Made by a program: the position numbers and the translations under genes
DNA from: Cristatella mucedo
Lineage: Eukaryota > Bryozoa > Phylactolaemata > Cristatellidae
NCBI GenBank assembly: GCA_009760855.2
Contig: WPIO01000021.1
Coordinates: 186,001-250,000 of the forward strand
Direction of reading: 5' to 3'
Length of the DNA stretch: 64,000 bases
Shown: positions 8,401 through 59,200 of the stretch, in pieces
Layout of the letters: each line of letters opens with the position of its first letter
Position numbering within the stretch: position 1 is the first letter of the stretch
Notes under the pieces: generated by a model
The model's database searches: none
What the model saw: only the letters and a program-made list of their open reading frames with translations
Told to the model about the DNA's origin: nothing

Positions 8401-11323
8401 TGCACTAACTTATTTTTTAAAGGTTCGTATGATCTACTCCTGAGTTACATCTTTGTTGCATTACTTAATTTCGTAATAAAAATAATTATGAGAGGTTCAG
8501 TCCTTATTAAAATCTATTCATATCAAAGGTACTACTTCAACTAGGTTGTATGCAGCAATAAATTTGCTAAACTCTAATGCAAACCAGACTTAAGCTTATT
8601 AATGATTCGATGGACCTTTTTAGCTCACTCAATAAGATTCACTGGGGCGTTAGATATCTGCAGATTGAAGAGTTTGGTTAATCTACAAGCTAAAGAACTG
8701 TTAAAACAGTGACATTGACTCTTAAAATGTATCATTGAATCATCGTAACACTTTTGCTTATATCAAAATATAGCTTACTTAACCCTTTTTGTTCGTGCCA
8801 ATTTGCATACCGATTGTACCGCTAGTCTTAAGAGACTTGTCAATGAATGTGCTTAAGGGAATCTGAATCCCATCGAGTAATGCATATCTACCCGGCTCTA
8901 TTCACTTCCCTCTTAAGAAGTACTGAAAATTTGTGATGTCATTTTTGTCAACATTCTTAGCACGCTATTGTGTATCTAAGGTACATAAAAACGCTAAGTA
9001 ACTTCTTACGAGACAGCATCTCCAGGATATATATAAAAGGGATAGTCCACATTTGGCTGAAAATTCATTCCACTCAGTACTTGTACGAATTGCGATGCAC
9101 TGTGGCCGGGCCTGTAATAATCAATCAGGATTTTATGTAAGACCTAGAGAATTAATTTGAGTTAATAATGATAATAATAATCTATTTTACGTAGCCCCTC
9201 AGAGAACCCAATCTCGTTCTAGGCACTTTACATTTGTTGCAAAAGAAGCACGACCGAATGGTGAGTGGTAGCATGCTCAGTAAACAACAAGAATAACATG
9301 GTTAGGGTTGACATGCACAGGGTCAGTATGCAAGTATTGTAGGTGGGAGCACGCACAGTGTCAGCACGCATAAGCACATAGAGGTCGAATCACGGGGACC
9401 CACCAAATGCTGTTATAAATAGATGCGCTTTTACTTTCTTTTAAATTTGGTCAAGTGTGGAGATTTCATCGCAAGTCGGGAATGATTTCCAGGCTTTAGG
9501 AGCATACAACTAAGGCACGGTCTCCAAAGGATTTGAGGTGTGTACGAGGTGTGGGCAAACAATTAGATTCCTGAAATTGGGTTGTACAATGCTTAGCCTG
9601 GTGGGGAAGTAGATCGGAAAGGTAGCATGAAGCCAAAGAATGAAGGGACCTAAAATTGGGTGATAAAACCTTGAATTCAATGCGTTGCTTGACTGGGAGT
9701 CTGTGACGGTCGGTGAGAAGTGGTGAGATGAGGTGGTAACTACGACGCTCATTACATACAAGCCTTGCAACAGAGTTTTGCACCAGCTGTACGGACCTAA
9801 ATGCATAGGTGGTAGACCAACAAGCAGTGAGTTACAGAAGTCAAGACGGGATGTGACAAATGCGTTTGCCAATTTAGATGTGGTATCCCTGTCTAAACAA
9901 GCCGAATCTCAGCAATGTTACGTAGCTGAAAGTAGGCAGACTTGACTGTGGAGGTGATGTGGTCGTCTAATGAAAGATCGTTTTGGAACGTGACACCTAG
10001 ATTTTGTGTAGATTCAACATAGGATATGCTGGCAGAGCCGATTTTGAGTGTTTGCCTATCCAATTTCTGGCTCACACTTGGTTTGCCCGTAATTTGTAAG
10101 TTGGTTGTCTCATCATTCAATTTAGGAAACCTTGCTGCCATCCGCATGTGGATGTAATCAATACATGCAGCAAGAGAGTTGAGAGAATTTGACTTGCTCG
10201 AGGGTTGGAGAGGATCAAAGCAAAGGTACAGCTGAATGTCATCTGCATAGAAGTGAAAGCCGAGATTGTGCTTGGCAATCACATCGGCTAGAGGGACAGT
10301 ATAAACCGTGAAAAGAACATGACTAAGCACAGATTCCTGGAGGTAACTCATATTTCAGAGGTTTTTCGGATGATTTTTGTCCATTCTTATCAACACTCTG
10401 GAGTCTCCCACTGAGATAGGACTACTGCAATGAGGTCTGTTTATTATCAGAATTATGAGACAAAAACTTTATAGTGTGAATAATCATTCCAGAAATGCCT
10501 AAAGTATGCAGTTGGTGAGTCTAGTTTATAGCAGCATTTTGGATGAATAAATAAAATTCATTTGCATAGCGCCTAAGAGAACTGAATCACTATCCAGGCA
10601 CTTCACATATGCAGCAGGGCTTGAACCCACGACGTTTGTCATCAAATTGACTTTGACCTTGGTCACTAAAGACAAGCATCTTAACCGTTAGGTCAAACCA
10701 GGGTGGCATCAGATTGACTCGTGTGGCAACCATGTCACGTCGTTAAATTATTTGATTAAAAAAACTTGTGCTGATCCTGACTGTTAGGACGCTGTGGTTA
10801 GTAGGCTTCGGCTATAGCCTGCACATTAGTGTGTATTTGCTGCCTCTACTATGAGTCTGCAGCCATGCTTTGGGGCTGTTTATAAACAATGACTTGCATT
10901 ACGCATAGCGATTTTTTGCGAAGCGTTACTTACAGAGTGATTATGAAAACGACTCATTTCACAGCAATTCGCCGCATTTGTTACAGAGCGATCCCTCTGT
11001 CTTTTTTTTGCATACTTAATGCCTCGGAATCGCCCAATTGGCTTAGTAACTATTTCAACTCGCTTGCAGCTCAATTCACGCAGCTGGTATGGAAAAAATG
11101 CAGGATGCTCGGCATTGCATACGTCGAGTATGAGCCACCGAACCACAAGGGATTCGTTAAGACGATTGTCGTTGCAAACTATTATCCGGGCGGCAACAGA
11201 GATGGAGAATTTGAGGAAAACATTGATCCTTTACCGAACGTTAAAATTAAAGGCCATCTGGCTAATAAGCTTGACGAGTACGAAAAAAAGAAAACCAAAC
11301 TGAGGCAAAGAGGTCTTTGGTAA
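570..11323 (+). CDS. CAP/SCP-TAPS (GAPR-1/VAL-like) protein, three 3' exons, 5' end not seen
   Basis: Joining 570-828, 4170-4247 and 11070-11323 gives 195 codons plus stop with no Met at the start. Seen: a CAP domain in order, AHNEYR and PPLQL near residues 17-32, FEHS (H55), GENLA (E70), LWYEE (E97), QFTQLVWK (114-121) and a closing YYPGGN...GEFEENI block, then a short lysine-rich tail and TAA. All junctions are GT-AG, phase 1 at both introns. No signal peptide is visible, so a GAPR-1-like group 2 protein is likely, but the first exon is missing and could encode one. CAP proteins are lipid or sterol binding and often extracellular or membrane-peripheral; the function here is unknown. Odd: the fourth residue of the CAP cavity tetrad, normally His before FTQ, is Gln. 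Introns are 3.3 and 6.8 kb and full of repeats. Confidence 0.9.
2214..2390. repeat. degenerate tandem duplication, about 105 bp x 2
   Basis: Two successive copies share the order AGAAAGATTCTTGATGTAATACTTCATTT / AAATTATTGACTTAGTACTTCATTT, followed by AAATCA-TAATTAACTAATTAGTTTTA and AACAAGCA. Several small differences indicate an old duplication. Confidence 0.6.
3140..3310 (+). repeat. LINE (CR1/L2-like) fragment
   Basis: Conceptual plus-strand reading gives LDDHI, STDKSA, LRNTANIRTCLD and IVHAF, the block between the RT domain and C-terminal region seen in better copies (e.g. 28.0-29.1 kb). It is decayed by stops. Confidence 0.65.
3365..3562 (-). repeat. tRNA-derived SINE, family A
   Basis: On the minus strand it starts with GAGCCGTGATACCACAC, has a box-A-like segment (CTAGCTAAGGCGG) and a box B GGGTTCGAATCC, followed by a body shared with the copy at 27.5-27.69 kb (GCAAGCGGTGATGATAGC, AGCTAGTATTATTATC). 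It is inserted between LINE pieces. Confidence 0.75.
3563..4130 (+). repeat. two LINE 3' ends in series
   Basis: 3563-3692 is a bare LINE 3' terminus with the hairpin AAAGCGCC...GGCGCTTT at 3621-3660 and an ATT-repeat tail. 3693-4130 is a second, older 3' piece with HLKSFGD-like coding and its own degenerate hairpin and tail just before the SCP exon acceptor region. Confidence 0.7.
4170..4247 (+). CDS. SCP/TAPS exon b (78 bp)
   Basis: Begins after TTATTGTAG and ends before GTGAGA. It completes a Gly codon with exon a and encodes RDASRLWYEEGKSYDYEK and onward to QPEC. This is the WYxE segment of CAP proteins, which contains the second conserved Glu of the cavity. Phase in and out both match the neighbours. 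Confidence 0.88.
4465..5265 (-). repeat. old LINE (CR1/L2-like) relic
   Basis: The 3' tail and hairpin are near 4480-4640. The C-terminal region is at 4740-5250 (minus): AAPQANHKSFGDPVACSYAL and [10 protein letters not shown]. The 5' part matches the LDDHI block of younger copies. Confidence 0.65.
5390..5580. repeat. (CT)n microsatellite tract
   Basis: Almost pure TCTCTC runs at 5395-5473 and 5530-5565, with pyrimidine-rich sequence to about 5650. The reading frames of Ser-Leu repeats here are artefacts of the tract. Confidence 0.95.
5871..6142. repeat. minisatellite, about 47-57 bp unit, just over 5 copies
   Basis: The unit ATAAAGATAGGGTTATTTCA, then CTTCATATTTATATATTCATA and a variable (AT)n, starts near 5871, 5927, 5979, 6027, 6074 and 6121. 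Only the AT run changes length, and it shortens from left to right. Confidence 0.93.
6357..6420. repeat. 16-bp tandem repeat x 4
   Basis: ACCAGCTTAGTATTCG-type units start exactly at 6357, 6373, 6389 and 6405, with 1-4 differences per unit. Confidence 0.9.
7838..7975 (-). repeat. tRNA-derived SINE, family B
   Basis: On the minus strand: GGTTTGACCTAGTGGTTAAGG (box-A-like), GTCGTGGGCTCGAGCCC (box-B-like), then the LINE-like tail GCGCCCGAACGGCAATTACG...CTCTTAGGGC. It is one of several dispersed copies. Confidence 0.7.
9160..10370 (-). pseudogene. LINE (CR1/L2-like) 3' half, frameshifted
   Basis: On the minus strand from about 10351: a decayed PQGSVLGP region, FHFYADDIQLYLCF (RT catalytic FYADD), a KLNDE/TNLQI block, LDDHI, then AARLVCNERRSYH, LPVKQRIEFK, LKSFGDRA. 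It ends in the TTTCTAGGCAC-type hairpin and an AAT-repeat tail at 9165-9185. It is 5'-truncated, with several frameshifts and stops. It lies in the second SCP/TAPS intron. Confidence 0.85.
10545..10712 (-). repeat. tRNA-derived SINE, family B
   Basis: On the minus strand: TGGTTTGACCTAACGGTTAAG (box A region), GTCGTGGGTTCAAGCCC (box B), then the LINE-like tail AAGTGCCTGGATAGTGATTC and TCTCTTAGGCGCTATGCAAA. Confidence 0.75.
11070..11323 (+). CDS. SCP/TAPS terminal exon
   Basis: Begins after the acceptor CGCTTGCAG. It encodes AQFTQLVWKKC, the VVANYYPGGN and GEFEENIDPLP motifs (CAP signature 2 region), then about 30 residues rich in Lys and Glu, and TAA at 11321. The upstream reading frame (from 10889) is chance intron sequence. 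Confidence 0.9.
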
Positions 11324-12674: not shown

Positions 12675-14040
12675 TGTAATAATATATTCGTATAGTGCCC
12701 TCAGAGTACTTAATCTCTTTCCAGGCACTTTACATTTGCTGTAAAGGAAGCATGATCAAATGGTTATTGGTAGCATGCTCAATGTCAACAAGCATAAAAT
12801 GGTTAGAGCAGACATGCATAGGGTCAGCATGCAAGTTTGGTTAGTGGCAGCATGCACAGTATCAGCTGGCGTAACCACACGAAGGACGAATAACATGGAC
12901 ACCCTAGATGCTGTGATAAATAGATGTGTCTCTTGCTTCTTTTTAAATGTTGGAAGTAAGTTTCGGGCTTTGGGAGTGTTGGGTCTGCTGTACCGTGAGA
13001 GTGGACTACCCCTGCGGAAGCCGCTGATGCGAGAACAGCGGACCCACTTGCAGCAGCTGCTTCCAAGCCAGCGTGCTGGCCGTGTGGCCCAGTTCCGGGT
13101 TTCCCTGATAAACGGCATCATCCTGGGCCGTCTTGGTCTGTGCGCGACTGCCCGCACAAACTCAACAGAGAGCATACGAAATAAAGGCACGGTCTCCAAA
13201 AGATTTGAGGTTCGTACGAGGTATAGGTAAAAGATACGATTAAGAAAAGTGGGTAGTACGATGCTTAGCCTGGTGGAGAGTAGATGTGATAGGTAGGCTT
13301 TAGCCAAAGAATGAAGGGGACTAGAAGTGAGTGACAAAACCTTAAAGTTTATGCGTTGCTTGACTGGGAGCCAATGCGGGTCAGCGAGAAGTGGTGTGCT
13401 GTGGCAACTGCGACGCTCACTACAGACGAGCCTAGCTGCAGAGTTATGCACCAGCTGTAAGCTCGTGATTGCACAGGCCGGTAGACCAGCAAGCAGCGAA
13501 TTATAGAAGTCAAGACGGGATGCCACAAATGCGTGGATCAATTAACATGTGGCATCCCTGTCTAAAAGAAAAACCTGAATTTTAGCTACGTTATGCAGAT
13601 AGAAGTAGGCGGACTTGACTGTGGTGCAGATGTGATAGTCTAATGAAAGGTCACTTTGGAGCCTGACACCTAGATTTTGTGCAGATTCAACAGGAAATAT
13701 GCTGGCAGAACCGATTCTGAGCGTTAACGTTTTCAATTTCTGAATCCCTCTTGGTTCGCCCATACCTAGTAAGTTAGTTTTATCATCATTCAATTTAAGA
13801 AAGTTTTCTGCCATATATGTGAGGGTGTCGTCAATTCAAGCAGCAAGGAAGTGGATATAATTCGACGTGCTTGAGAGCTGGGAGGGATCAAAGCAAAGGT
13901 ACAAATTAGTGTCATCTGCATAGAAGTGAAAGCCTAGACTGTGCCTGGCAATCACATCGGCAAAGGGAGAGCATAACCCGTCAAAAGCGCGGAATCAAGC
14001 ACGGAGCTCTGAGGTACCCCGTATGTTAGAGGTTCTAATT
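12675..14040 (-). pseudogene. LINE (CR1/L2-like) 3' half with a GC-rich insert
   Basis: On the minus strand: the FYADD region near 13.9 kb (decayed), KLNDDKTNLLGMGEP, LGVRLQSDLSLDYH, then [31 protein letters not shown] and the 3' hairpin at about 12690-12740. The LINE sequence is broken after TTTGGGAG at 12976 by about 196 bp of unrelated GC-rich DNA and resumes at CATACGAA near 13173. Confidence 0.85.
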
Positions 14041-26000: not shown

Positions 26001-29000
26001 AGGCGGGGGTTGACAGGCCAGCCAACATCTATCAGCAGCTTCCGCGAGTATCGGACCAATTCTAAAGGCCGAATCGCCGACGCTCGTCTCAGAGCTTCCT
26101 GGCCTGCTCCTAAGCGCTTCCTCTCTAACCGCACTGACGCTCCTCTCTGGCTCACTGCTCCAGGACAAAGGGGCTCTAGCCCGCCGCCGAACAGCTCTTG
26201 TTCGCGCTAAAATTCAGCCAAAGCCAGCCGGGCGCTACAATAGTACGCGACCGGATGGTCGTCTCTTTTATCGTCCAGCTGGCTCAAGACAGCTGCGATC
26301 CCTCTGTCGGATGCATCCGTCTGGAGCAAGAACTCTCTTGAGAAGTCCGGGTTCCTTTGAATGAGGGCTGAACAAAGCTTGTCCTTTAGGGTCTGGATAG
26401 CTGTTTCGCAGGTGTTTGTCCAGCACATCTTCTCTGGGGCCGCTTTCCGGGTTAGGTCGGTGAGTGCCGTGGCTACAGCCGCATACTCGGGTATGAATTT
26501 CCTGTAGTACCCGCTGAGTCCTAAGAAGTCTCGGACGTGAGTTTTCTTTATGGGCCTCGTGAACTCCTAGACGGCTTGCACCGTGTTCTGACCCAACTTT
26601 ACGGATCCACTTCCCACTGTCTGACCGAGATACGAGCAACGAGGCACAGCCATTTGATATTTCCTCGGATTGGCCGTGAGGCCTACTCGAGACAGTCTCC
26701 GTGGTACTGCCTGCAGGCGATCCAAGTGTTCTTTCCAGGTTTTTCGGTGTATAACCAGGTCATCCAAATATGAGCCAGTTAAGGCTTCCTGTCCTTGGAG
26801 GACCTGATTCATTGGTCTCTGGAATGAGGCAGGTGCTCCCTGAAGACCAAAGGGCATCATCAGGAATTGATATAAGTCGGCTCCTGCCGTGGAGGCTGTT
26901 ATGTGCTGGCTATACTCAGCCATCGGGACTTGCCAGTATCCATTTGTGAGGTCCAATGTGGTAATGAATCGGGCCTGTCCCAAGCAATCGATTAGGTCTC
27001 CGATCCGTGGCATCAGGTAGGCATCCACTCTTGAGAGTGCATTCACCTTCCGGTAGCCTATGCAGAGGCGTAGGGTGCCTTCTTTTTTTTGGCACCACCA
27101 CTATGGGTGAACACCAATCGCTGCTCGACCGCTCAATGATCCCCTCCTCAAACATATCCTTTATATCTTGCTGCACCTGTTTCCTGAACGCATGGGGGAT
27201 TCGGTAAGGTTATGACTGTATGGGTCGCGCGTCCCCGATGTCGATGCGACGCTCGACCAAGCTCGTGCTCCCTGGCTGCTTGATAAACACCCCACTGTAG
27301 GTGTGCAGTAGTGCACTGAGCTCCTTGACCTGCTCGTTCGTCAGCTGGTCTCCCATCGTGGGCTCCTCGGAGTTAACTACGGCTCCAGCCTTTTGGCCCT
27401 CGCTCCTTAGCCAGGCTGGTAGCTCCTCTATCTCCTCGCTGGTTTTCTGGGTCCAGCTCGCCGACCCCTGCACTTGATGGATCGCCCGTAGCATGTTGAT
27501 AAATAAATAAGTTCTAGCTGATTAAACAGCCTCTTTATTGTATAGCGACAGAAGAGCCTTTAAGGCTATCACCACCGCTTGCAGTTGCGATAAAGAATCG
27601 CCCACTGCAGGAATCGAACCCACGACTTCGGGGCCGAGGTCGTGAAAGCAACCGCCTTACCTGGTGTGCCATCACGGCTCACCGTGATGTGGAACACCCG
27701 CCGACGCTTTCGGGCGTCGTGCATGTCCACCGCATAATTGACTTCCCCCATTCTCTCAGTAACCTCGTAGGGCCCCTGCCATTGAGCCCACAGTCTATCT
27801 GAGCTGGTCGGCAGAAGAACGAGCACGCGATCCCCGAGATTAAAGTTGCGGCTCCTTTCGTTCCGATCGTAACAGGTCTTCTGACGCCTCCTTGCGTCTT
27901 CAAGATTATGCCTGACTAGTTCACCCATACTTTCCGTTCTCTCTCGAATGGCTAAGACATGAGACATGACATTCTGCCCAGCCTGCCTATAATAATAATA
28001 ATAATATTGCACTTGATAAAGCGCCCTCAGAGAACTTAATCTCTTTCTAGGCGCTTTACATTTGCTGCAAAGTGATACGCAATAGAATAGTAAGTAAAAT
28101 CATGCTTGAAAAACAAACAAAATGAATAACATGGTTAGGGGTTACATGCACTGGGTCAGCATGCAAATGTGGTTAGTGGCAGCATGAACAGTGTCAGCAC
28201 GCATAAGCACATCGAGGACGAATCACAAGGACCCACTAAATGCTGTCCTAAATAGGTATGTTTTTAAGTTTCTTTTAAATGTGGTCAGGTCAGGGAATGT
28301 TCTGATGCAGGTCGGGAGGGAGTTCCAGGCTGTGGGAGCATACGAGCTAAATGCACGGTCTCCAAAGGATTTAAGGTTTGTACGAGGTATTTCTAGACTG
28401 TTGGATTCCGAAAAGCGAGTGGTACGATGCTTTGCCTGATGGGGTAGTATCTCTGAAAGATAGGCTGGAGCCATAGAATGAAGAGACCTAAAAGTGAGCG
28501 ACAAAACCTTGAAGTCAATCCGTTGCTTGACTGGTAACCAGTGCAGGTCGGCGAGAAGTGGAGTAATGTGGCAACTGCGACGCTCACGACAGACAAGCCT
28601 AGCTGCAGAGTTTTGCACCAGCTGCAATCGCCTGATCGCACATGCTGGTAGGCCAGTAAGCAGTGAGTTGCAGAAGTCGAGACGAAATGTCACGAATGCA
28701 TGGACCAACTTGGACGTGGTATCCTTATCTAAACAAGCCCTAATTTTAGCAATGTTATGAAGCTGAAAATAGGCTGATTTGACTGTGGAGCTGATGTGGT
28801 CGTCTAACGAGAGGTCGCTTTGGAATATGACACCTAGATTTCGAGCTGATGCAACTGGAGATATGCTGGCAGAGCCAATTTTGAAAGTCAGCCTTTCCAA
28901 TTTCTGAATAACACTAGGTTTGCCCATAACTAGTAAGTTAGTTTTATCATCGTTTAGTTTTAGAAAATTTGCTGCCATCCATGATCGGATGTCATCAATG

Positions 29001-32000
29001 CATGCAGCAAGTGAGTTGAGAGAATTCGAGGTGCTCGAAGGCTGGGAGGGATCAAAGCAAAGGTACAACTGAGTGTCATCCGCATAGAAGTGAAAGCCTA
29101 GGTCTTTCCCATGCCTCCTTAAGGACATCCAATGGGCCCCGAACGTTTCGGTCATACAGCAGCGCGAACGGCGAGAATCCCGTCGATGCTTGGGGGACCT
29201 CCCTATAGGCAAACAAGACCTACGGGAGTAATCGGTCCAATCACCTCCTTCTTGGTCCTCGGTCTTTCGCAGTATTGTCTTCAACGTCTGGTTGAACCTA
29301 TCAACCAGGCCATCTGTCTGGGGATGGTAGGGACTGGTGCTGAGCTTTGATACGTAGCAGTCTGTATAGCTCCCTCAGCAACTTCCCAGTGAAGTTCGAT
29401 CCTTGATCCGTTAGGATCTCTTTGGGTACTCCTACCCGAGAGAATATTTCAATAGGCTCCTTGGCTATACTGGCCGCATCAATCTTTCGAATTGGTATGG
29501 CTTTCGGAAACCGAGTCGCGTAATCACAGACCACCGGGATGTACTCATTGCCCGATCGGCTCCTGGTGATTGGGCCTACGAGGTCCATGCCAATGCGCCT
29601 GAAAGGCAAATCCATTATTGGTACAACATACACTCGATTTAATCCGAATGCCACATTATTGCAAATTTATAACATCGTTATCAGTGGCTGAACTCATAAA
29701 ACTTGAGACATGTTTCCCTTAGAAACTTCGGTGCCTTCGATCAAACGGGCGAAAGAAAAAGCACAAAACATGCCTGTATTAATAATAATAATAATGCACT
29801 AGATAAAGCACCCTCAGAGAACTCAATCTCTTTCTAGGTGCTTTACATTTGCTGCAAAGGGAAACGCGATTGAATGGTGAGTAATATCGTGCTTGATAAA
29901 CAACATGAATAACATGGTTAGGGGTAACATGCACAGGGTCAGCATGCAATTGTGGTTAGTGGCAGCATGCACAGTGTCAGCACGCATAAGCACATCAAGG
30001 ACGAATAACAGGGACCCACTAAATGCTGTCCTAAATAGGTGTGTTATTAAATTCTTTTTATATGTGGTCAGGTCAGGGGATGTTCTGACGCAGGTCGGGA
30101 GGGAGTTCCAGGCTTTGGGAGGGAGCATGTGAGCTAAATGCACGGTCTCCAAAGGATTTGTGGTTTGTACGAGGTATTGGTAAACTTTTGTATTCCGAAA
30201 AGTGGGTGGTACGGTGCTTGGCCTGATGGGGGAGTAGATCTGAGAGATAGGCTGGAGCCAAAGAAGGAAGTGACTAAAAGTGAGCGACAAAACTTTGAAG
30301 TCAATCCGTTGCTTGACTGTTAGCCAGTGCAGGTCGGTGAGAAGTGGTGTGATGTGGCAACTGCGACGCTCACGACAGACAAGCCTAGCTGCAGAGTTTT
30401 GCACCAGCTGTAATGGCCTGATTGCACATGCCGGTAGCCCAGCAAGCAGAGAGTTACAGAAATCATGTCGGGATGTCACAAATGCATGGACCAACTTAGA
30501 TGTGGTATCCTTATCAAAACAAGCTCGAATTTTAGCAATGTTATGTAGCTGAAAGTAGGCAGATTTGACTGTGGAGCTGATGTGGTCGTCTAACGAGAGG
30601 TCACTTTGGAACATGACACCTAGATTTTAAGCTGATTCAACAGGAGATATACCGGCTGAGCCAATTTATCATCGTTTAATTTTAGAAAATTTGCTACCAT
30701 CCATGTGCGGATGTCATCAATACATGCAGCAAGTGAGTTGAGAGAATTTGAGGTGCTCGAAGGCTGGGAGGGATCAAAGCAAAGGTACAACTGAGTGTCA
30801 TCCGCATAAAAGTGAAAGCCTAGATTGTGCTTGGCAATCACATCAGCAAGAGGGAGAGTATAAATCGTGAAAAGAACTGGGCCTAGCACGGAGCCCTGAG
30901 GTACCCCATATTTCAGAGGTACCTCGGATGATCTTTGTCCATTCACGTCAATACTCTGGAGTCTGCCACTGAGATAGGACCTGAACCACTGCAGAGCAGT
31001 GCCAGTGATGCCCAGGCTAGATGAGAGGCACTCTAGAAGAAATGTGTGATCGATAGTATCAAAAGCTGCCGAAAGATCAAGCAAAACAAGCAGAGACACT
31101 CTACCTATGTCTGCATTCTTAAGTAGGTCGTTGTACACCCTAAGCAATGCTGACTCTGTGGAGTGATTAGCTCTAAAGCCAGACTGGAACTTACTAGCAA
31201 GGTTTGAAGTTTCAATATATGACTTCAGCTGGTCCGCAGTGTTAGGTAGGGTAAAAGTGACTATTGTATGTGCATAATGCAATTTATCGTGGATTAATAG
31301 AAACTTCTACCTAATAGAGCCTCCGTTTAATATTTACTATGTAATTCGCTTTTACAGAACAATTATTTCCCATTACTGGCTATAATCAAATTGTAGTCAG
31401 TAAAGTGCCCAAAGTTAAAGCCTGAAACTCTTTTTCAATTTAGTTTTTCTGCTGAGATCACATGAATTCTTTCAGTAAATAACATTCCTCTTGTTTGCAT
31501 ATTTTTGGTAGATTCGACAATATGTATTCTAGCTTCGACGTTTATTCTTGGAATCCGTGTGTAGATTACAAGGAACTTGACGATGATGGAAACGCCGAAG
31601 GCTGCGGAAAGATTGCCGTAAGCTGCTTTAACACAGTTGCGGCAAGGCTTACTGCTACTTTACGTGCTTGTCCTCAGCGAGCCGTCATGACCATTATTAA
31701 ATATCAAAAAAGGTTCGCACTGACGTTTTTTGAAAGCTTTAAGTTGCACATTTTTACAAGAATCGTGGAGCTCTGCGGGACGTACAGGTGCAACGTGCGC
31801 ACGCGAATTCATCGTGCCGCCGCCCGGAAGAGCCATGCAAGTAGTAATAATAATAATAGTGCACTTCATAAAGCGCCCTCAGAGAACTCAGTCTCTTTCT
31901 AGGCGCTTTACCTTTGCTGCAGAGGGAAGATAATAAAAGTAATCTCTCGTTTATAGCCCCTTAAGAGAACTGGCTTTCTTGGCGTAAGAACCTTGTAACG

Positions 32001-35000
32001 CAGCGGTTCTCAACCTGTGGGTCGTGACCCCTTTGCGGGTCGAAGGGCCCTTTCACAGGAGTCGCCTAAGACCGTCAGAAAATACGCATTTCAACATTTT
32101 GCACACAACAATTTTATGGTTGGGGTCGCAACAACATGCAGAACTGTATTAAAGGGTTGCGCCATTAGGAAGGTTTAGAACGTAGCTGCACCAACAGTCG
32201 GATTCATATTTCGCTGAACAGGCCAATGGGATTTCGTGGCACTACAGTGGAAGGCGTATAAGTCAAGGCAGTCTCGGAAATTGAAAGCGGAAGTGAGCGT
32301 CCTATTGACTCACCCATTTTGACGCCACCCTTGCGGAGAGAGCGCCATTGCATGCTTGCCTAGACATTTGTCGTCGGTCAGATAAATTATAAAATGGAAA
32401 ATACTAGGATCCAGTCATTGCTGCTTTCTCTACTGCGGTCACAGGTCTTAGATCCGAAAACAGCCCCGATTGAGCAGGCCCATCATCTATCACGCTTTGC
32501 TTGGACTCCTCTCAATCCAGGCGCTTTGACTTTTGACCCCAATTGCCAGCCCGTCGCTCCAACGTTCGACTGAGGCGGAGCCAGGGGGTGGCAGCTGCTG
32601 CCACACTTGGCCATGGTAGGTGGGAGCCGAGACTTTAAAACTCATTCTTCTAAAGCTCACGTAATAGCCTATCCGACTGGCTATTTTGACGTCATTTCGG
32701 TCAGTTTCCACTTGCCTCAGGCGCTGGAGGAGCGCCCCCAGACCCACCTCCATGGCGACTCTAAGCTGCTAGCATGGGAAAGTGACCCGCTAAAGTGATG
32801 TCACCTTGCTAACAAAGAGACCTGTTACAGCATTTGAAGCAAGTCTTTAGTTTTAGCATTGGTGGCTGGGACTGGGGCTGAGAGCTGGAGCTGAGGCCAT
32901 TTCCTCCTCCCACGTTGCAGAGGGGCGAGCACCTGGGCCTAACGCCCTACTCCTACGCCCCCTCTAATGACAATGACGAAATTACGTCATAGCTCCACTC
33001 GATGAGCAACAGCTGAGTTCTGTCAAATTAACGCAATAATAATAATAATATAATTCGCTTTTACAGCGCTATAACTCTGCCTCAGGGTTCGAGCCTCCCC
33101 GCCCCTCCCCCACCTATTGAAAGAGCAAAGTCTTCTAATGTGCGTGCACGCTTGGGGTGGCCTCAAAATTCGGCTTTATAATCGTTTAGCTTGAGGAAAT
33201 TTGCCGATATCCAGGATCGAATTTCTGAAATTGCAAGCAGTAAGTATATCAGTCACTGCAGCAGAATTTGATAGTTTAAACGACAAATACGGCTGAATAT
33301 TATCAGCATAAAAGTGATAGCCGACTTCATTCACCCGAATCAATTTTGTGATGGGTTCAGTATTAATAGATGATAGCAAACAATGACAGTGTACGGACCT
33401 TTGTGGGACTCCGTGGGTGACTGATCTGGTGGATGAGACCTGACCCCACACGACATGAATTGAACATGGTAGGACAAGTGTGATTTGAATCAAACCAGTG
33501 CCTTGTTTGTCAGATCAATCGTTGCTCTCAGTCGTATAAGTCGGATATTGTAATCAATATTGTCGAAGTTAGCTGATAGATCTAGCTAGACAAGGCCATT
33601 GGCATTCACGTCATCATTGCTGCATATAATGACTCTGGTTATACGAATGAGAGAGCAGTTTCAGTGGAGCGCTGTCGCTTGAATCCCAACTGAAATTTGT
33701 CTGACAACTCACTCATTCTTATGTTTCAACGCATAGGCACCCAGAGGAAATTCACAATACTCAAGCAAATGCTGTGAGGAACATGTGGATGTTTTGCTTT
33801 TTTTAATTCGTCATGATATGTAGTGAAGTCAGCCGGAAATAATTTCTGGGTGAAGGAACAACTTACTGAAGGAACGGTCTTCAAAGAATTTATCTTAGTT
33901 TGAGACATACGCGAACGACATGGTTCAGAAAAAGATACCTAGCCTGACTGGGAATAAGTTCTGGTCTGTAAAGCCGGAGCAAGAGGATAAAGAAACCCAT
34001 AGTGAATGACAGCACCATGAAGTCGATATGCTGGTTTGTTGAAATAAAGTTTCGGTCTGTTAGAATTAGTGTAATGTGGTCATTAAGACATCCACGACAG
34101 ACTAGCCTGGCTGCAAAGTTTTGCACCAGCTTTTTAGCACCAACCATATCAGCTCCACATTTGAGTCTTCTACTTTCAGCCGCTTACCATCACAAAAATG
34201 TTGGCTTTTTTTGGGTAATTATACCTGATCTACGTTGTTCCACACAATTGTGACATCCCGTCTCGACTTCTAAAACTCGCTATTTGCAGGTCATCCTGAC
34301 TTGTCTACCGTGAACGTCGCAGTCGCCATATTACACCGCTTCTCACCTACCTGCACTAGCTTGCCATCATAGGGCGCATCGACTTTAAATTGTCGTCACT
34401 TTTAATTCCATTAATTCTATTGCTCCATCTTATCTATCCAAACTAGGTAACAATCAGGGTAGGCATTTTAGCACCGGATCTTCTGACTTAAGTCGTTTGG
34501 CTGTGCATCGAACTAACCTCAAATCCTTTGGAGGCCATGCCTGTAGTTAGTATACTCCCAAAGTGTTGAACTTTCTCTCGACTGATGTCAAGTCATACCC
34601 TGACTTAACGACATTTAAAAAGAAGAAAAAACGCGCCTGCTAATAACAGCCATTGTTGGGTCCTAATGAATTTCCTGTGCTATGCTGTGTGTGCTTATGC
34701 GCATTGATGCGCTGCATTTTATCATTAGTCATTTTGACATGCTTCTTATACACCATTTGTAAAGTGCCTAGAAAGAGAATGAGTTCTCTGAGGTAATATA
34801 AATGTGTTATTATTTTTATTATTATTCTTATTATTGAACCATGTTCTGAAGAGTCTCTTGATCTATCTGTGGTTTATGTTTCTGTGCTTAAAATGATTAT
34901 GACGAGAATAAAAACTTCTACAGCACCCTCGTAAAAAATAAATGTCCCTCTAGAAACTTGAAATATGCTTGAATTGATTCAGATCAACTTATTAGTACTG

Positions 35001-38000
35001 CCATGGCACCTTAAAAATTCAGAATGCATGAGCACATAAAGGACAGCGTGCTGTGAAAATTAGCTGCGTTGTACTACGTGCAGAGTGTAAGTGCCATAAC
35101 TATCTTCCTTTTCGAAGGTATCATAAGGCATCATAGCAAAAATAATGCTTTAAAATACGAGAGATTTTTTTACGTTATTTTAAGGTCTAAATTGACGACA
35201 AAGTAATCAGGCTCATTCTTTCAAGTGTAAATCCCTATAGATTGACCAGTGCTTGGGGGCCATTGAACAGTTGTCAGGTTGATCCCTGACCTCGTCTCCC
35301 CGCTCCCCCGCTTCATTCAGCAGAATAGGCCCACTATCCAACAACCTGTATCGATCGGCTCACCGGCACTTGCTTCACGTCCTCAGCTGCTTGCTCAGCG
35401 GAATAATTTGAAATAACTGTCTTGTAAACAAACCTATTGACGATCATATCCTAACAGTAATCTAAACGGACCCCCTAACACATTTCCTTCCGCGACGTTG
35501 ACTGTGAGCTATTGAAGTTAACAGGCCTAAGATGCTTCCTTTACACTTAAAATATTTTGGAAATGAGTAAATAAACTTAGATTTGCTTACATAAGGATAA
35601 AAGAACTTGAGTACGTGTTAACTGACCACGCTCCTAAAGATTTGCTTGCATCAATTCTTTCACGAGAGAGCCTAGTTTTACAGCAATGCGGACGTGAAGG
35701 CTTAACCTAAGAATCTCTACACAAAATTGGATATCAAATTTTTATATTGAGGCACAAGTTTCACAATCTCTTTTTTCGAGTGAGATAGCATGGGAATACT
35801 CTGACTATCACTTCACTTGGATGCAAACTTCCTATTTGTTCGTCGCTAGTGTTCTCGAGCATTACGTTTTACGAATTTGGCTGATTCACGTTTAGCGATC
35901 TATAAGAAAAATTCTGAATACATGTATTCTGATTTTTAAATGAACTACCGTCGTACTACTTAAACTTAAATTTTGATTGCAACTTCAAACCTGCTCCAAA
36001 TAATCATCAGTAGCAGCTGCCTTGTTATGAAGCTTATATAGTTAAAGGAAATGCTAACGGTTGGTGATGATAGGATTAAGTACCTATGACCGGGCTTTAA
36101 CACAAACTTATTTTTTATCTAGGGCATTAGATCGTATTTTCTAAACTCAATGCAACTAATTCTAATGATTATTTCTTTGTCTTTAAGGCGTGTCAAAAGC
36201 ATTCTTCGGGGTTTTACGGTCTAGGAACCCAGGCATCAGCATCATTTATAATAAATTCTGGAGGCTACGTTGAAATTCAATACAAATCACAATATGGAAA
36301 CAGGTGAGAAGACCTAATAATTTTATGAGTTCTTGGGCGTAGCTATTTCAGAAGATTTAGCAGTTTACTTCGACCAAAGCCCTAGACATTTACTTTGCAT
36401 GGTTTATCTCTAATATGCCAAATTGCTAGTCTTTTATTAAAAAATCTTAAACATTAAAAGAGTTTATTATTTGAAACTCTTTGGTGATTTCATATCACCG
36501 GTCAAGGACTTTTTAGAGTTTCTACGTCGTAAAATACCACCTCATTCATTGTATTTTTTATTAATTTTGTTATATTTTAAGATTCTAACTATAGGTCCGT
36601 TATGGCTGCTGCTGTTTGCTCATGTCAATCTTCTCAAACCGAATAAAAGATGCTTTCCAAAATCATCTTGCAAAAATCATCTTTCCAACGAAGGACTTAA
36701 AACTACAGGCACTGATCGGTTTCCTTTAATTTAGTGCATGCCGCAAAGCGCATTCTTAGCAGTTTTTGTCAGTATTTCCTATCGAAGAAGACGATACTAT
36801 TATTATTAGTGAGAGCTTTTTATCTGTTCTAAAATGTATTCAAACAGCATAATACCTCATTCTGACTTTTTCATGTCACTCTTGCACCTAAAATAGATGG
36901 AAAATTATCTTAATTTAATAATAATAATAATAAAAGGCAGATTTTCAAAGAGCCTAAAGAGAACTAAATGTCTATATAGGCGCTTTACCGCTGGCTGCAA
37001 AAGAGTCAATAAACAATGGTTAGGGGTACGCAAGGTATTATGCTTAGGCAATGACCCAAAAGCAAGCAAGTAGCATGATTGTGCCAACGCGAAAGCACCC
37101 AATGAGACACTACGATCCCGGTTAGCAGGACCTCTGGCTAGTAACAGGATCTGAATCCTGGACAAGTAGGCGTGTAAAACATACAGAGACAAAAACGAAA
37201 ACTTCACTTGGGCAAAATGAAATAATATGGGATCGTCTCCTGTGGGGACAGAAGCTTTGGGTGAGTTCCAGACCTTCAATACATGCTGATTGAGTTTGAC
37301 ATCGGTTGCACACGGTTAATGGCAAAGGCAAGGAGTGCCGTAGAACGTAAATTGCAGCAATCTAGACGCAATTTCAAAAATTTGTTAACAGATTCGGCAA
37401 TCGTAATCTTGTAATAATAATAATAATGCACTTGATTAAGCGCCCTCAGAGAACTTAATCTCTTTCTAGGCGCTTTACATTTGCTGCAAAGTGAAATGCA
37501 ATTGAATGGTAAGTAAAATCATGCTTAAAAAACAAACAAAATGAATAACATGGTTAGGGGTGACATGCACAGGGTCAGCATGCAAATGTGGTTAGTGGCA
37601 GCATGCACAGTGTCAGCACGCATAAGCACGTGATGGACGAATCATAGGGACCCACTAAATGCTGTCCTAAATAGGTGTGTTTTTAAGTTCCTTTTAAATG
37701 TGGTCAGGTCAGGGGATGTTCTGACGCAGGTCGGGAGGGAGTTCCAGGCTTTGGGAGCATACGAACTAAATGCACGGTCTCCAAAGAATTTAAGCTTTGT
37801 ACGAGGTATTTCTAGACTGTTGGATTCCGAAAAGCGGGTGGTACCATGCTTGGCCTGATGGGGGAGTATATCGGAGAGATAGGCTGGAGCCATAGGATGA
37901 AGGGACCTAAAAGTGAGCGACAAAACCTTGAAGTCAATCCGTTGCTTGACTGGTAGCCAGTGCAGGTCGGCGAGAAGTGGTGTGATGTGGCAACTGCGAC

Positions 38001-41000
38001 TCTCACGACAGACAAGCCTAGCTGCAGAGTTTTGCACCAGCTGCAATCGCCTGATCGCACATGCTGGTAGGCCAGTAAGCAGTGAGTTGCAGAAGTCGAG
38101 AAGGGATCCTGGACAAGTAGGCGTGTCTAAACATGCCCTAATTTTAGTGCCGCTCCTTATTTGGAAGAGGCTGACTTAGCTGTAGAAGAATTTTGCTCAT
38201 CCGAAATAAATTAGTCTCCTGAACAATCTAAAATAGCAGCACGGTAATAATTAAATTAGAACTTGTATATCCTCGAAATACCGAAGGGCTAGGATTGCAA
38301 ACTAAAAGCATTATGACACGTTGCCTTTGAAAAAGAAATTGCATAGCTACAGCTAATCCGACAAGAATTTAATAGCAAGCACTAGCACAAAACTTAGCAA
38401 GTGCATCGTATTAGGGAAGCATATTGCAGTAGCCACTGCAATATGCTCCTATTGGAAAAAAAACTAAAGTCTTAGGACTGGATCGCTGACCGAATTCTGC
38501 CAGGTCCATAGATAGCAACCAAGCGGTAACTTTTGGTCCCATTTCTTTATTCCATTCAGTGTGAAAATGGCTCGCTTGCAGAACTGGGGGCAATAATTCA
38601 GAGCATTTAGTGATATGTGTAACCTGGATGAATGTCAGCCGACTCTGGTATGCGACGTGGGCTGAATAATCACTCTCCGGTATAAGGTAATAGCAGATAA
38701 AAGCTCTTTTGGTTTCATTTTTTTTCTTGACGAGCTAGAACACACATAAACGAGAATCTGCGCACATTTAAATGCCAGCATCACGCTCTGATGAGGTATC
38801 CTGCACTCTACGAAGAATAGCATGACTCTCTGAACATGACTCTCAGAGCATTGATGTAGACCACCCTAATTCTGGTTATCTAAGAGAATTAGATGAACAA
38901 ACCAGGTCAGTAATAAATGTAGGAGCCAGTTGCTTCGCTGTGGGAGTCCTTCAAACAAGATCTTCCACATCGAGCCTTGAGTGATACGGGCATATTTGGA
39001 AGTTCAAGTATTTTTTGAGCGTGTATTTATTTTTTCTGGATCGGTCAATAGATTGTGCCTAATTGCAGTCTCTACGTTGATTCATCTTTGCACCCAGCTA
39101 AATATGTGGGATTCGTAGTCTTTTGGAAATAAAACGCTACAGCTTTTAAAGTAATCCAACTGAGTCCTAACCTGGAAAAAAGAGATTAAGAGCGCTTCCT
39201 TTGACGGCTCATATTTTAAAATGCTGTTATGTCTATGGGCATCATGATGATGAATTTCGTTGCTTGCTTTTACCGAAGAACAGCCGGAAGTCACTCCTTG
39301 CTCAAGGGAGTTTTGGGACACGTATCATATACTTTTGCACTGCCTCTGAAACAGCTGGCTGGTATAGTGCAGCACGTTCGCGCTTCGCCGATATGCTTCG
39401 ATTCTGGCAATAGATATCCTGCCACTTTGTGATCTAAAACAGCGAGGATTTTATGATTAATATATATCAGTGAATAAAAACTATTTGCAATTTGCATTTT
39501 TCAGAACGGCTCACGTGCAGCTCCAGTGTTTGGCGTCGCAACCTACTACCATCGTAACAGCTAGTGGCGAGAAGCAACCAGATAATTATGCAAGTAGACT
39601 GACGTTTCATTTTCTTTTCAAACTCCTCTCGAAATATCAAGACGCCGCTATACTATTTTTTCTTGCTAAGTCTGCAAGTCATTTGTATTGCACGCGTCAG
39701 TGTTTGATACTCCATCAAGAAGCGTAGCTCTACACCGTGGTAATGAAGTTCGAAGCTCGCAGTCGAAGCGAAACCTATAAAGCAAGGTTGCTGATAGCAA
39801 TGGACAAGGGCTTTAATGTGGACTACCTGGCGATCTCTTTAGGAACGTTCCAGACTACAGCAGTGAATTTTATAATCGGCCGCCTTATTTACATGCTAAT
39901 CTCCGCGTTCTAGCATTGTGTCCCTTATAGTTGGGCCTCTCGTATTCATGCAGTTGCCATATCTAGAAGAACTTATCAAATCCTCTCACTTTTTCTTTTC
40001 TTATAGTCTTTTTGATTACCAAAGCATATGCATTTATATACTTATATAGTCTATATTTAAAGTCGGTATAACCATTAGCGCTTAGCACTCATCATGTATC
40101 GGCATCTTAGTTATATCGGCAACCGCACCAAGCAGTGCCTCTTTCAAGAACACAAGCCACAAGCCCAATGGAATAATCTCTCAAAAGCCTTTAAGATCCA
40201 GTGACGGAGCCAGGATAGGTCTGGGGGTAGGTCTAGCCTAAACTCTTTAGCCTAGTTTGCAAAGGAGCAGCTCTCACTGATAGCTACAATCGCGTGCATT
40301 TTGCTCTATTTAGTTTTAACTTCTCGCTTCAAGAGCCTCAGAGTAACAGAGGGAGGAGGGGTGCGAATCTACCCATGCAGATTAGCTGGGACCCGTTAGC
40401 TAAGTCGCAGAAAGCGATGGAATTAATCTGACAGCGAGAACTGATTTCGTCCTAAGGTAGCCTTAAACTGAAAGCTATCCCACTGACAGGAGACACGAAC
40501 TGGCCAGTAGGCCGACTAATTCGCCACGCTAACCAGGATGCTAGGCTGGGAGGCATGCGCAGAAATGCCGTCAGCTAAGGGTTTCAAGCAAATAAACGAG
40601 ATAGATGAACCGAAGAATGGCCCCCAATAGTTGGGTCCGAGAGAATAACAACTGCGCAAGCTCTGGAGCTCAGCTTACGTAGCTCAAGCCAGCGACTACC
40701 CTTCGAGAGAAGCGAGAGACCGAATCTGCGGCAACGAAAAAAGGAGTCTAACTTGGACTGCACAGCTGCGTTCCTGTGGCTACTCAGCTAGCATCGTGTA
40801 CCTTGGTGGGCTGTGGTGGTCCACCTTCAAGGTGCGAACAGTCGCTAACGATTTCGGAAATGTTTTAATATCTACTATACCGCGATTTCAAGGATTCTTA
40901 TAGTTTCAACCGTTAGGATCGCTTTTCGTATCATAAGGCGCTTTTCACGGCGAATAACTTCGTACTAACCGACCCACAATAAGCAGTTGGTTTTGGCGCC

Positions 41001-56233: not shown

Positions 56234-59200
56234 TTATTTGATATAGCGCCCTAGGGGAACTTAATCTTTTTCTAGGCACTTCGGATTTGCTACAAAGGAA
56301 ATATGAGAGCAATGTTACCTCATCCAGCAGCACGTTCACGGTTTCCTAGAAGAAGGGCTAAAGTGCCATCATTGTTTAGTTCACAAAATTTGGCCACTAT
56401 TTGGGACTGAATATTTACTTGCAGTTAATCAATTGCCACAGTTGATTCTGGTGACTTCAATGAAAAGTACACCCGTTAGCCATCGGCATGAAAGTGGTGG
56501 CCAATGCCGTGGGCCTAAGATACTTCTTTAGAGGCTCTATCTAAACGGAGAAAAGGCAATTGATCTAGAACAGACCTTCAAGAATTGATCGTCATCCGTA
56601 AGAGACTAGACATGTAATAACAATAATAACACACTTATAATAATAATAATAATGCACTTGATAAAGCGCCCTCAGAGAACTTAATCTCTTTCTAGGCGCT
56701 TTACATTTGCTGCAAAGGGAAGTGCAATTGAATGGTAAGTAAAATCATGCTTGAAAAACAAACAAAATGAATAATATGGTTAGGGGTGACATGCACAGGG
56801 TCAACATGCAAATGTGGTTAGTGGCAGCATGCACAGTGTCAGCACGCATAAGCACATCAAGGACGAATCACAGGGACCCACTAAATGCTGCCCTAAATAG
56901 TTGTGTTTTTAAGTTCTTTTTTAATGTGGTCAGATCAGGGGATGTTCTGACGCAGGTCGGGAGGGAGTTCCAGGCTTTGGTAGCATACGAACTAAATGCA
57001 CGGTCTCCAAAGAATTTAAGGTTTGTACGAGGTATTTCTAGACTGTTGAACTCCGAAAAGCGGGTGGTACGATGCTTGGCCTGATGGGGGAGTATGTCGG
57101 AGAGATAGGCTGGAGCCATAGAAGGAAGGGACCTAAAGGTGAGCGACAAAACCTTAAAGTCAATCCGTTGCTTGACTGGTAGCCAGTGCAGGTCGGCGAG
57201 AAGTGGAGTAATGTGGCAACTGCGATGCTCACGACAGACAAGCCTAGCTGCAGAGTTTTGCACCAGCTGCAATCGCCTGATCGCACATGCTGGTAGGCCA
57301 GTTAGCATTGAGTTGCGGAACTCGAGACGGGATGTCACGAACGCATGGACCAACTTGGACGTGGTATCCTCATCTAAACAAGCCCAAATTTTAGCAATGT
57401 TATGAAGCTGAAAATAGGCACTTGATAAAGCACCTTCAGAGAACTCAATCTCTTTCTAGGTGCTTTACATTTGGTCGAACAAGTACAATTGAAACCACAG
57501 CAGAGTCTTATCAGACAGACTAATGATTGTTCTAATTCGCTCACGCCATTCTGAGCTGCTATTTTCATGCTACTCACTTCCTTCCTGACTGAACGGAGTC
57601 TGGGCAATAACTTTGTAAGACCTCAGAGTTACTTTCAAAGCATAATAAGTATCGGTTGAACGATAACAGATAAATGACTTTTGGAGCAATCAGGAATGAA
57701 TCATTGGAGACTTGAGTTGCACCCAGATTAATTTAACTATATATGAAGCACAAAAATGTTTGGTCTGCATTAGGTGCCCTTTTCACTGGCCTCATATCTC
57801 TCCCAGCTCATCTTTGAAAATTGTCATATTTATTTTTGCAGAACTATATATTGTCGCTTGTATTACGGCCTTCCTCGAGTTTTGAGCACCCAGTGCTGGA
57901 TGGGTTCCTCCAGAAAGACCCAATATTGCACGTTCCCAGTGCTAAAACATTTGCGTTGTTCTCCAGACAATATCCTTGCACATCGGATGTTACAATTGGA
58001 AATATTATAGAAGCACCAGCAACCAACCTGACGCCTATACGAAATGCAAGATTTTCCAAAGTAGCATTAGCACCTGGAAACAGCCTGAAACAATTTTCTG
58101 AAGCTCTCTTTAGACAAATGAAAATAGTTACTTTATAAATACACTTTGACAAAGGCCTGAGATACTGCAGTGAATGGCCGCTGAATAGACCAGGGCCTTA
58201 TTTTAAGAGATTTCGGCTTCTCAGCTCACAATAATACAACCCGGGCTAATAACGAAGCTTAAAATAGTACTCGCTCTTGAAGAATGGTGTTATAAGATAA
58301 ATCTGTGAAATTATCGCTATGTAATGTAATGTATCTCCGTCTGTAACTTTAAAAAGTCATAAAGACCATGTGGGTGTTATGCAAGAGAGTTTTGTATAGC
58401 CCACTCACAGCCTAAACAGTTTTCGGTACGCATTCGGTAGCCAACAGACTTCGTCTTACGCAACAAAGAGAAAGTGGGAAGCATAGCAGAGTCAGGAGAG
58501 CAGTTGGGGTAGTGAGTAGCATAGAAGTAGCAGCTCAGGACCGCTGAGAAGGATGTGCCATAGTCGGCGGTAGGAGAGTAGTTGTCATTGCGTAAGAATT
58601 TTGGAAGCGAGCTCCACAGTCTAGGACCTGCAGAGCTAAAGCTTCTGTCACCAACGGTCTTTAAGCGGAGGAATGGGACAGCTAATTTATTGTCCACACA
58701 GGACCTGAGGGCGCGAACAGGCTGAAATTGATACAGCAGTTCAGCTAGGTATGGAGGATCCAAGCCGTGGCGGGCCTTGTGGGTCAGCGTAAGAACTTTG
58801 CTCTGTATCCATTGCTCAACCGGCATCCATCCAAGCTCTTTTAGCAAAGGAGACACGAGCTCAAACCTCTGGGACTTGAAGACTAGCCTTGCGGCCATAT
58901 TCATAGTCAGCTGCAGCGGCCTAGTTGCTTTCTTTGGTTTCCCAGCCAAAAGGGAATTACAACAATCAAGCCAAGACATAGCTAAGGAGTTAGTTAATTT
59001 TTTTTAAAGCCACTGTGGAAGACAGCTCCTAATCTTAGATAGGGATCAAACGTGATGGCTAGCTGTAGAAGCAGTCTTCTGAATGAAGCTTTTAAAATTT
59101 AGGCAGCTGTCGAAAACGACACCTAAATTTCGAGCATGTTGTGTTGGTCGGACAACAGCATCATCTATTAGAATAGCAAAGCCTTTTAATCTAGCCACAC

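Follow-up and report, generated by a model that had tools for sequence, protein, structure and literature searches.

The element at positions 32001 to 32188 of the window, by which we mean the whole 64-kb stretch of DNA analysed (positions 186001 to 250000 of contig C133), was confirmed to be a complete, if decayed, copy of a hAT MITE of 187 bp that is present in many copies in the host genome. The MITE is an internal deletion product of elements of ~3 kb found in the same genome, its consensus bases 1 to 93 and ~107 to 187 being the two ends of those longer relics. With high confidence, we consider that it arose by deletion from a SPIN-like hAT transposon, was mobilized in trans, and belongs to a family that was most likely acquired horizontally, SPIN being the name that we presume to apply to this element.

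The copy lies on the plus strand, with 32001 as its first base (CAGCGGTTCTCAACCTG...) and 32188 as its last, exactly where the sequence-only reading had placed a hAT MITE; it opens with CAGCGGTTCTCAACCTGTGGGTCG and closes with ...AGGTTTAGAACGTAGCTG. Its 5′ terminal inverted repeat spans 32001 to 32016 (consensus CAGCGGTTCTCAACCT, 15/16 bases complementary to the other end), and its 3′ repeat, at 32171 to 32188, has mismatches and an insertion of 2 bases. The long relics carry, at their 5′ end, the left block (32001 to 32093), where consensus and relics agree at 88 to 94%, and, at their 3′ end, the right block (32107 to 32188), at 86 to 90%. The consensus was derived from 41 complete copies, from which the window copy was left out because its right end is damaged; aligned end to end, the two span 189 columns, of which 168 match, 18 mismatch and 3 hold gaps. 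The target duplication is no longer recognizable in the window copy, as the octamers at the left (31993 to 32000, TTGTAACG) and right (32189 to 32196, CACCAACA) target-site positions (plus strand) are alike at 3/8 bases. Within the 64-kb window this is the only copy at E ≤ 0.01.

Outside the element, a search with the joined flanks had 1,820 first-look candidates and listed 42 matches, of which 40 fell within an unrelated repeat of the 5′ flank (31852 to 31929, no strand assigned), at 88 to 96% identity. This repeat is thus a high-copy host sequence, which indicates that the flank of the window copy is host DNA. It also contains an inverted AAAGCGCC/GGCGCTTT pair, noted by eye. In the empty-site search with the joined flanks, the host repeat dominated the list, and none of the matches listed crosses the junction by more than 1 to 2 bases.

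Several other features of the window and of the assembly were recorded. Open frames at 9510 to 10351, 12756 to 13541, 28223 to 31282, 37642 to 38046, 56868 to 57353 and 58377 to 59525 (minus strand) read, by eye, as reverse transcriptase fragments of non-LTR retrotransposons, and another at 474 to 890 resembles an exon of a CAP/SCP-domain protein (by eye). The mitochondrial contig (C688, 21,008 bp) contains a stretch repeated ~2.1 kb apart, together with a further inverted piece that includes part of nad3; by eye, nad2 and a piece of cox2 lie on the opposite strand, and a gene block reads nad1-nad6-cob-nad4L-nad4-nad5, an order reminiscent of molluscs and other lophotrochozoans. Its COX1, judged by eye at conserved places, reads with TGA as W, ATA as M, AAA as K and AGR as S, that is, with the invertebrate mitochondrial code, which is at odds with a flatworm, echinoderm or vertebrate; the host is thus probably a protostome. 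COX1-like pieces with internal TGA on C166, C83, C549 and C299 are perhaps nuclear copies of mitochondrial DNA.

The abundance of the MITE was examined in the genome of 572,011,866 bases in 688 contigs. A similarity search with the window element yielded 2,056 first-look candidates, and all 40 of those scored were matches: the window copy itself was identical throughout (100%), and the remaining 39 showed 87 to 90% identity over at least 173 of the 188 bases, with E values of 3.1 × 10−59 to 2 × 10−54. A 26-base degenerate pattern of both ends found 437 exact matches in the genome (220 forward and 217 reverse), and the reversed control found 0. The first 100 listed places of these 437 comprised 48 left ends and 52 right ends, forming 4 left-right pairs, from which capture-recapture gave ~2,700 copies, a rough estimate whose error is wide with so few pairs. 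The element was present at 39/39 places sampled from the pattern list, of which 3 (L066, L068, and L071) hold a form of ~0.5 kb and 1 (L065) has ~150 bases inserted. The further copies in the host assembly for which the sequence-only reading had asked were therefore found in abundance.

When 31 copies taken from 30 loci were aligned, their ends were sharp and their flanks, by eye, differed from one another, save for one duplicated locus (L015/L029). The 41 complete copies, 18 from the similarity search and 23 from the pattern sample, with L015 and L029 both counted, yielded the consensus of 187 bp, whose terminal inverted repeat agrees at 15/16 bases, a value reached in 0 of 10,000 shuffles. 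Their 8-bp flanks showed exactly 0, 1 and 2 mismatches in 9, 12 and 9 copies, compared with 0.2, 0.7 and 2.3 for shuffled pairs; cumulatively, 9, 21 and 30 of the 41 copies carried target duplications with 0, at most 1 and at most 2 mismatches, versus 0.2, 0.9 and 3.2. The target consensus was nTCTAGAn, with the central T at 67/82 and the central A at 72/82 positions. The family thus displays an 8-bp duplication, short terminal inverted repeats, a length of 187 bp, many copies and a longer partner with the same ends, all of which characterize a hAT MITE.

Copies of the pattern sample lie at a mean Kimura distance of 0.093 from the consensus (0.086 with CpG sites left out) and those of the similarity sample at 0.059 (0.051 likewise), and amplification of the MITE in this host is not recent. 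A distance of 0.09 would correspond to ~10 to 45 million years at a neutral rate of 2 to 9 changes per thousand million site-years, a rate that is assumed and unmeasured. Given a family that multiplied and grew old within this genome (0.093 on average in the pattern sample), to call this copy direct evidence of exposure, as was proposed for a host that is a parasite or shares hosts with other SPIN-bearing animals, goes too far.

Three long relics bearing both MITE ends were found in the same genome, on C676 (2,956 bp), C111 (3,288 bp) and C133 (3,110 bp). Each carries MITE bases 1 to 93 at one end and bases 107 (111 in the C111 relic) to 187 at the other, and the "deleted middle" attributed to the element earlier is accordingly real relative to these relics of the genome itself. 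A deletion form of 1,123 bp with both MITE ends lies on C5. The C133 relic and the C5 form are bounded by perfect 8-bp duplications (ATCTAAAT and CACTAAAT, respectively) and the C111 relic by one with a single mismatch; no 8-bp target duplication was recognizable around the C676 relic. As for the 0.5-kb forms, L066 and L068 consist of the left 358 to 369 and the right 132 to 141 bases of the relics, i.e., they are internal deletions, and L071 retains other pieces. Stops and changes of frame, noted by eye, interrupt the coding sequence of the long relics.

Transposase remains were then sought in the genome with a C-terminal motif that we take to represent the hAT-Buster group. Of 300 candidates, 150 were scored, and these included 130 matches at E ≤ 0.01, the best five having E values of 2.3 × 10−15 to 2.4 × 10−11. 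Four of these best five loci adjoin a MITE end, and at 4 of the 8 motif loci fetched (L044 to L047), MITE ends stand next to transposase remains; at the C658 locus, transposase remains were present and no MITE end was found within the stretch read. Over 49 to 74 amino acids, five relic loci share 50 to 57% identity with this motif. When an uninterrupted 192-amino-acid piece of the C133 relic was searched against the genome, 13 of the 138 candidates scored were matches at E ≤ 0.001. Eight of these rows represent five family loci (C133, C676, C111, C658, and C332:4204514, the last being counted with the family by its transposase match), and the other 5 are distant relatives at 27 to 38% identity. 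The check for an autonomous transposase, as proposed earlier, turned up broken copies of ~3 kb that retain transposase remains; among the matches listed for the Buster motif and the 192-amino-acid piece against the genome, none was an intact transposase of the MITE's family.

Database searches with the relic transposase pieces returned no accepted Pfam family (the best hit, hAT dimer, at E = 0.13, fell under the cut-off) and no PDB match above threshold, and neither search returned a SPIN or Buster protein. The remains between the relic ends match, distantly, a protein of the same genome (L100), whose Pfam hits are all subthreshold: the hAT dimer region (E = 0.001), zinc fingers and DUF4371. 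A hAT-dimer search of the genome gave 138 matches with 150 of 766 candidates scored, the top 63 rows being of like score (≥69 bits). A young hAT with a 640-amino-acid BED-finger transposase was tried as the partner of the MITE and rejected, because the 8 of its loci that were examined from this top group (L033 to L040) lack the MITE's ends, none of them matching its consensus at E ≤ 1. Four of these loci (L037 to L040, on C110, C222, C668, and C277) each hold an uninterrupted frame for this transposase, with main pieces 98.9 to 99.6% identical over 2.8 to 3.2 kb, and this separate family may still be active.

The origin of the family was addressed by searching words of the element in printed sequence. 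The mouse DNA matches described below were found in this way, with the exception of the Ate1 R2 primer, so that each is partly selected, whereas the R2 match is unselected because R2 was not searched for. In the primer listings of PMC2767504 and PMC2837401, mouse Ate1 R1 (TCAGTGGTTCTCAACCTGTG) corresponds to consensus bases 1 to 19 at 18/19 and R2 (CAGGGGTTACCTAAGACCAT), on the same strand as R1, to bases 56 to 75 at 18/20. A mouse Kcnq1ot1 primer (GATCGCCTAAGACCATCGGA), as printed in PMC6221546, matches bases 60 to 79 at 19/20, and a mouse Fem1b primer (TCAACCTTCCTAATGCTGCAACT), as printed in PMC12319709, matches the right end at 20/23. Together, the four primers match at 75/82 bases, and the best of 500 shuffles per primer reached 14 to 16; without the searched words, and with R2 included, 34/40 bases match. 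As we read them, CpG sites of the consensus account for 5 of the 7 mismatches in the primers.

A longer match was obtained with a stretch of the mouse FDH gene, as printed in PMC8376875, which aligns with consensus bases 107 to 187 at 67/81 columns with one gap. Printed mouse DNA, which with this stretch comes from four loci, thus covers the entire right block of the consensus, and the alignment sets in precisely at the deletion boundary, the point at which MITE and relics cease to agree. With the searched 13-base word masked, the stretch still scored 38, whereas 500 shuffles reached 14 at most, and without that word 54/68 columns match. In its last 72 bases, 46/59 bases outside the word match without gaps, and 3 of the 13 mismatches are at CpG sites. 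The FDH copy is more diverged from the consensus than the primers are, and since only 3/13 of its mismatches are at CpG, it shows real divergence.

Other matches did not extend. The printed sequences of Cldn8, BMX, and IL-3R alpha gave chance matches to short words without extension, and a Vps18 primer, which matched at 17/21 against a shuffled maximum of 14, matched at 2/6 outside the searched word and was dropped as chance. Words of 18 to 24 bases of the element had no match in printed papers, and among phages, plasmids, viral contigs and prokaryote genomes the element found no counterpart save a 24-base piece in one phage (E = 8).

The mouse matches bear directly on the foremost alternative, namely that the MITE is a generic Buster-type hAT element, native to this lineage and vertically inherited, whose ends merely resemble those of SPIN. 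Similar terminal bases are expected within the Buster group, to which SPIN belongs, the same genome also codes for distant hAT-like relatives, and the likeness to SPIN is an indirect one, through printed mouse DNA. However, the agreement with mouse DNA reaches beyond the terminal bases into subterminal noncoding DNA (the primers at 18/20 and 19/20) and, in the FDH stretch, takes in the whole right block from the MITE/relic boundary. The protostome-deuterostome split dates to >500 million years ago, and noncoding DNA would not remain so alike since then, which argues against vertical inheritance. We therefore regard a native origin as improbable. Contamination of the assembly with vertebrate or other SPIN-bearing DNA, for which no supporting point was found, is far less credible still, given that copies reside on many contigs, some of them 10 to 25 Mb in size, with their own flanks and target duplications, and that the window copy adjoins a high-copy host repeat; the host-specific flanks that had been proposed as a check are indeed present. 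A chance or low-complexity resemblance, likewise with no point in its favor, can be dismissed in view of the E values at the 39 other places (3.1 × 10−59 to 2 × 10−54) and the 437 exact hits of the end pattern, where the reversed control had none.

Thus, we favor deletion from a SPIN-like parent followed by mobilization in trans, in a family brought in horizontally. A SPIN-like hAT of ~3 kb would have lost its transposase gene, keeping ~93 bp of the left end and 81 bp of the right end, and the short form would have been moved in trans, by cut-and-paste, by the transposase of full-length copies. It would have inserted into nTCTAGAn-like sites, with 8 bp of target duplicated. The family is most likely silent now, because the full-length copies found are broken. 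Entry into this invertebrate lineage was most likely by horizontal transfer, because closely similar noncoding ends occur in mouse DNA (75/82 primer bases and 67/81 columns), and such likeness across so old a split is unexpected of neutral DNA inherited vertically. The mouse matches thus point to the horizontal transfer that had been raised as a possibility from the sequence.

A bolder extension, which we put forward only tentatively and judge rather unlikely, is that this invertebrate is an unreported SPIN host preserving a whole decay series (3-kb, 1.1-kb, 0.5-kb, and 187-bp forms), and that mouse and host perhaps received all but identical source elements, taken from a common pool no more than tens of millions of years apart. 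Such near identity is suggested by the location of 5/7 primer differences at CpG, and it is made less likely by the larger number of non-CpG differences in the longer FDH copy. If it were true, the host, or something living with it, could belong to a route between land vertebrates and invertebrates.

Among transposons that have passed between distant animals, SPIN (SPACE INVADERS) is a textbook case, with tetrapods (the mouse among them), Rhodnius and Lymnaea as hosts, and each added invertebrate host, especially one whose long relics allow the parent to be recognized, bears on how DNA crosses phyla. In the genome studied here, the deletion ladder also links the MITE to its parent. A 2008 paper, by its title, deals with horizontal transfer in mammals and other tetrapods. 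SPIN comprises many nonautonomous deletion forms beside few long copies, and the element described here resembles it in its hAT structure with 8-bp duplications, in its deletion forms beside few long copies, and in the match of both ends to printed mouse DNA. It differs from SPIN in its host, and the likeness was drawn from printed mouse DNA rather than from a SPIN consensus or SPIN transposase. Compared with hAT-Buster transposases, the relics share a similar C-terminal motif, whereas they are broken and their Pfam scores are under threshold. A text search of the literature gave no listing attributable to this host, a weak negative since it was made without a species name. In PMC5440852, Biomphalaria glabrata is described as carrying a SPIN-like hAT with ~1,000 copies and no intact transposases in the assembly. 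By description rather than by sequence, that snail family parallels ours in its similarity to SPIN, its high copy number, its protostome host and the absence of an intact transposase among the copies found. SPIN copies of the triatomine bug Rhodnius prolixus also appear in PMC11614815. As snail and triatomine bug hosts are already in print, the general picture is unchanged, and the element is a further SPIN-like case alongside them.
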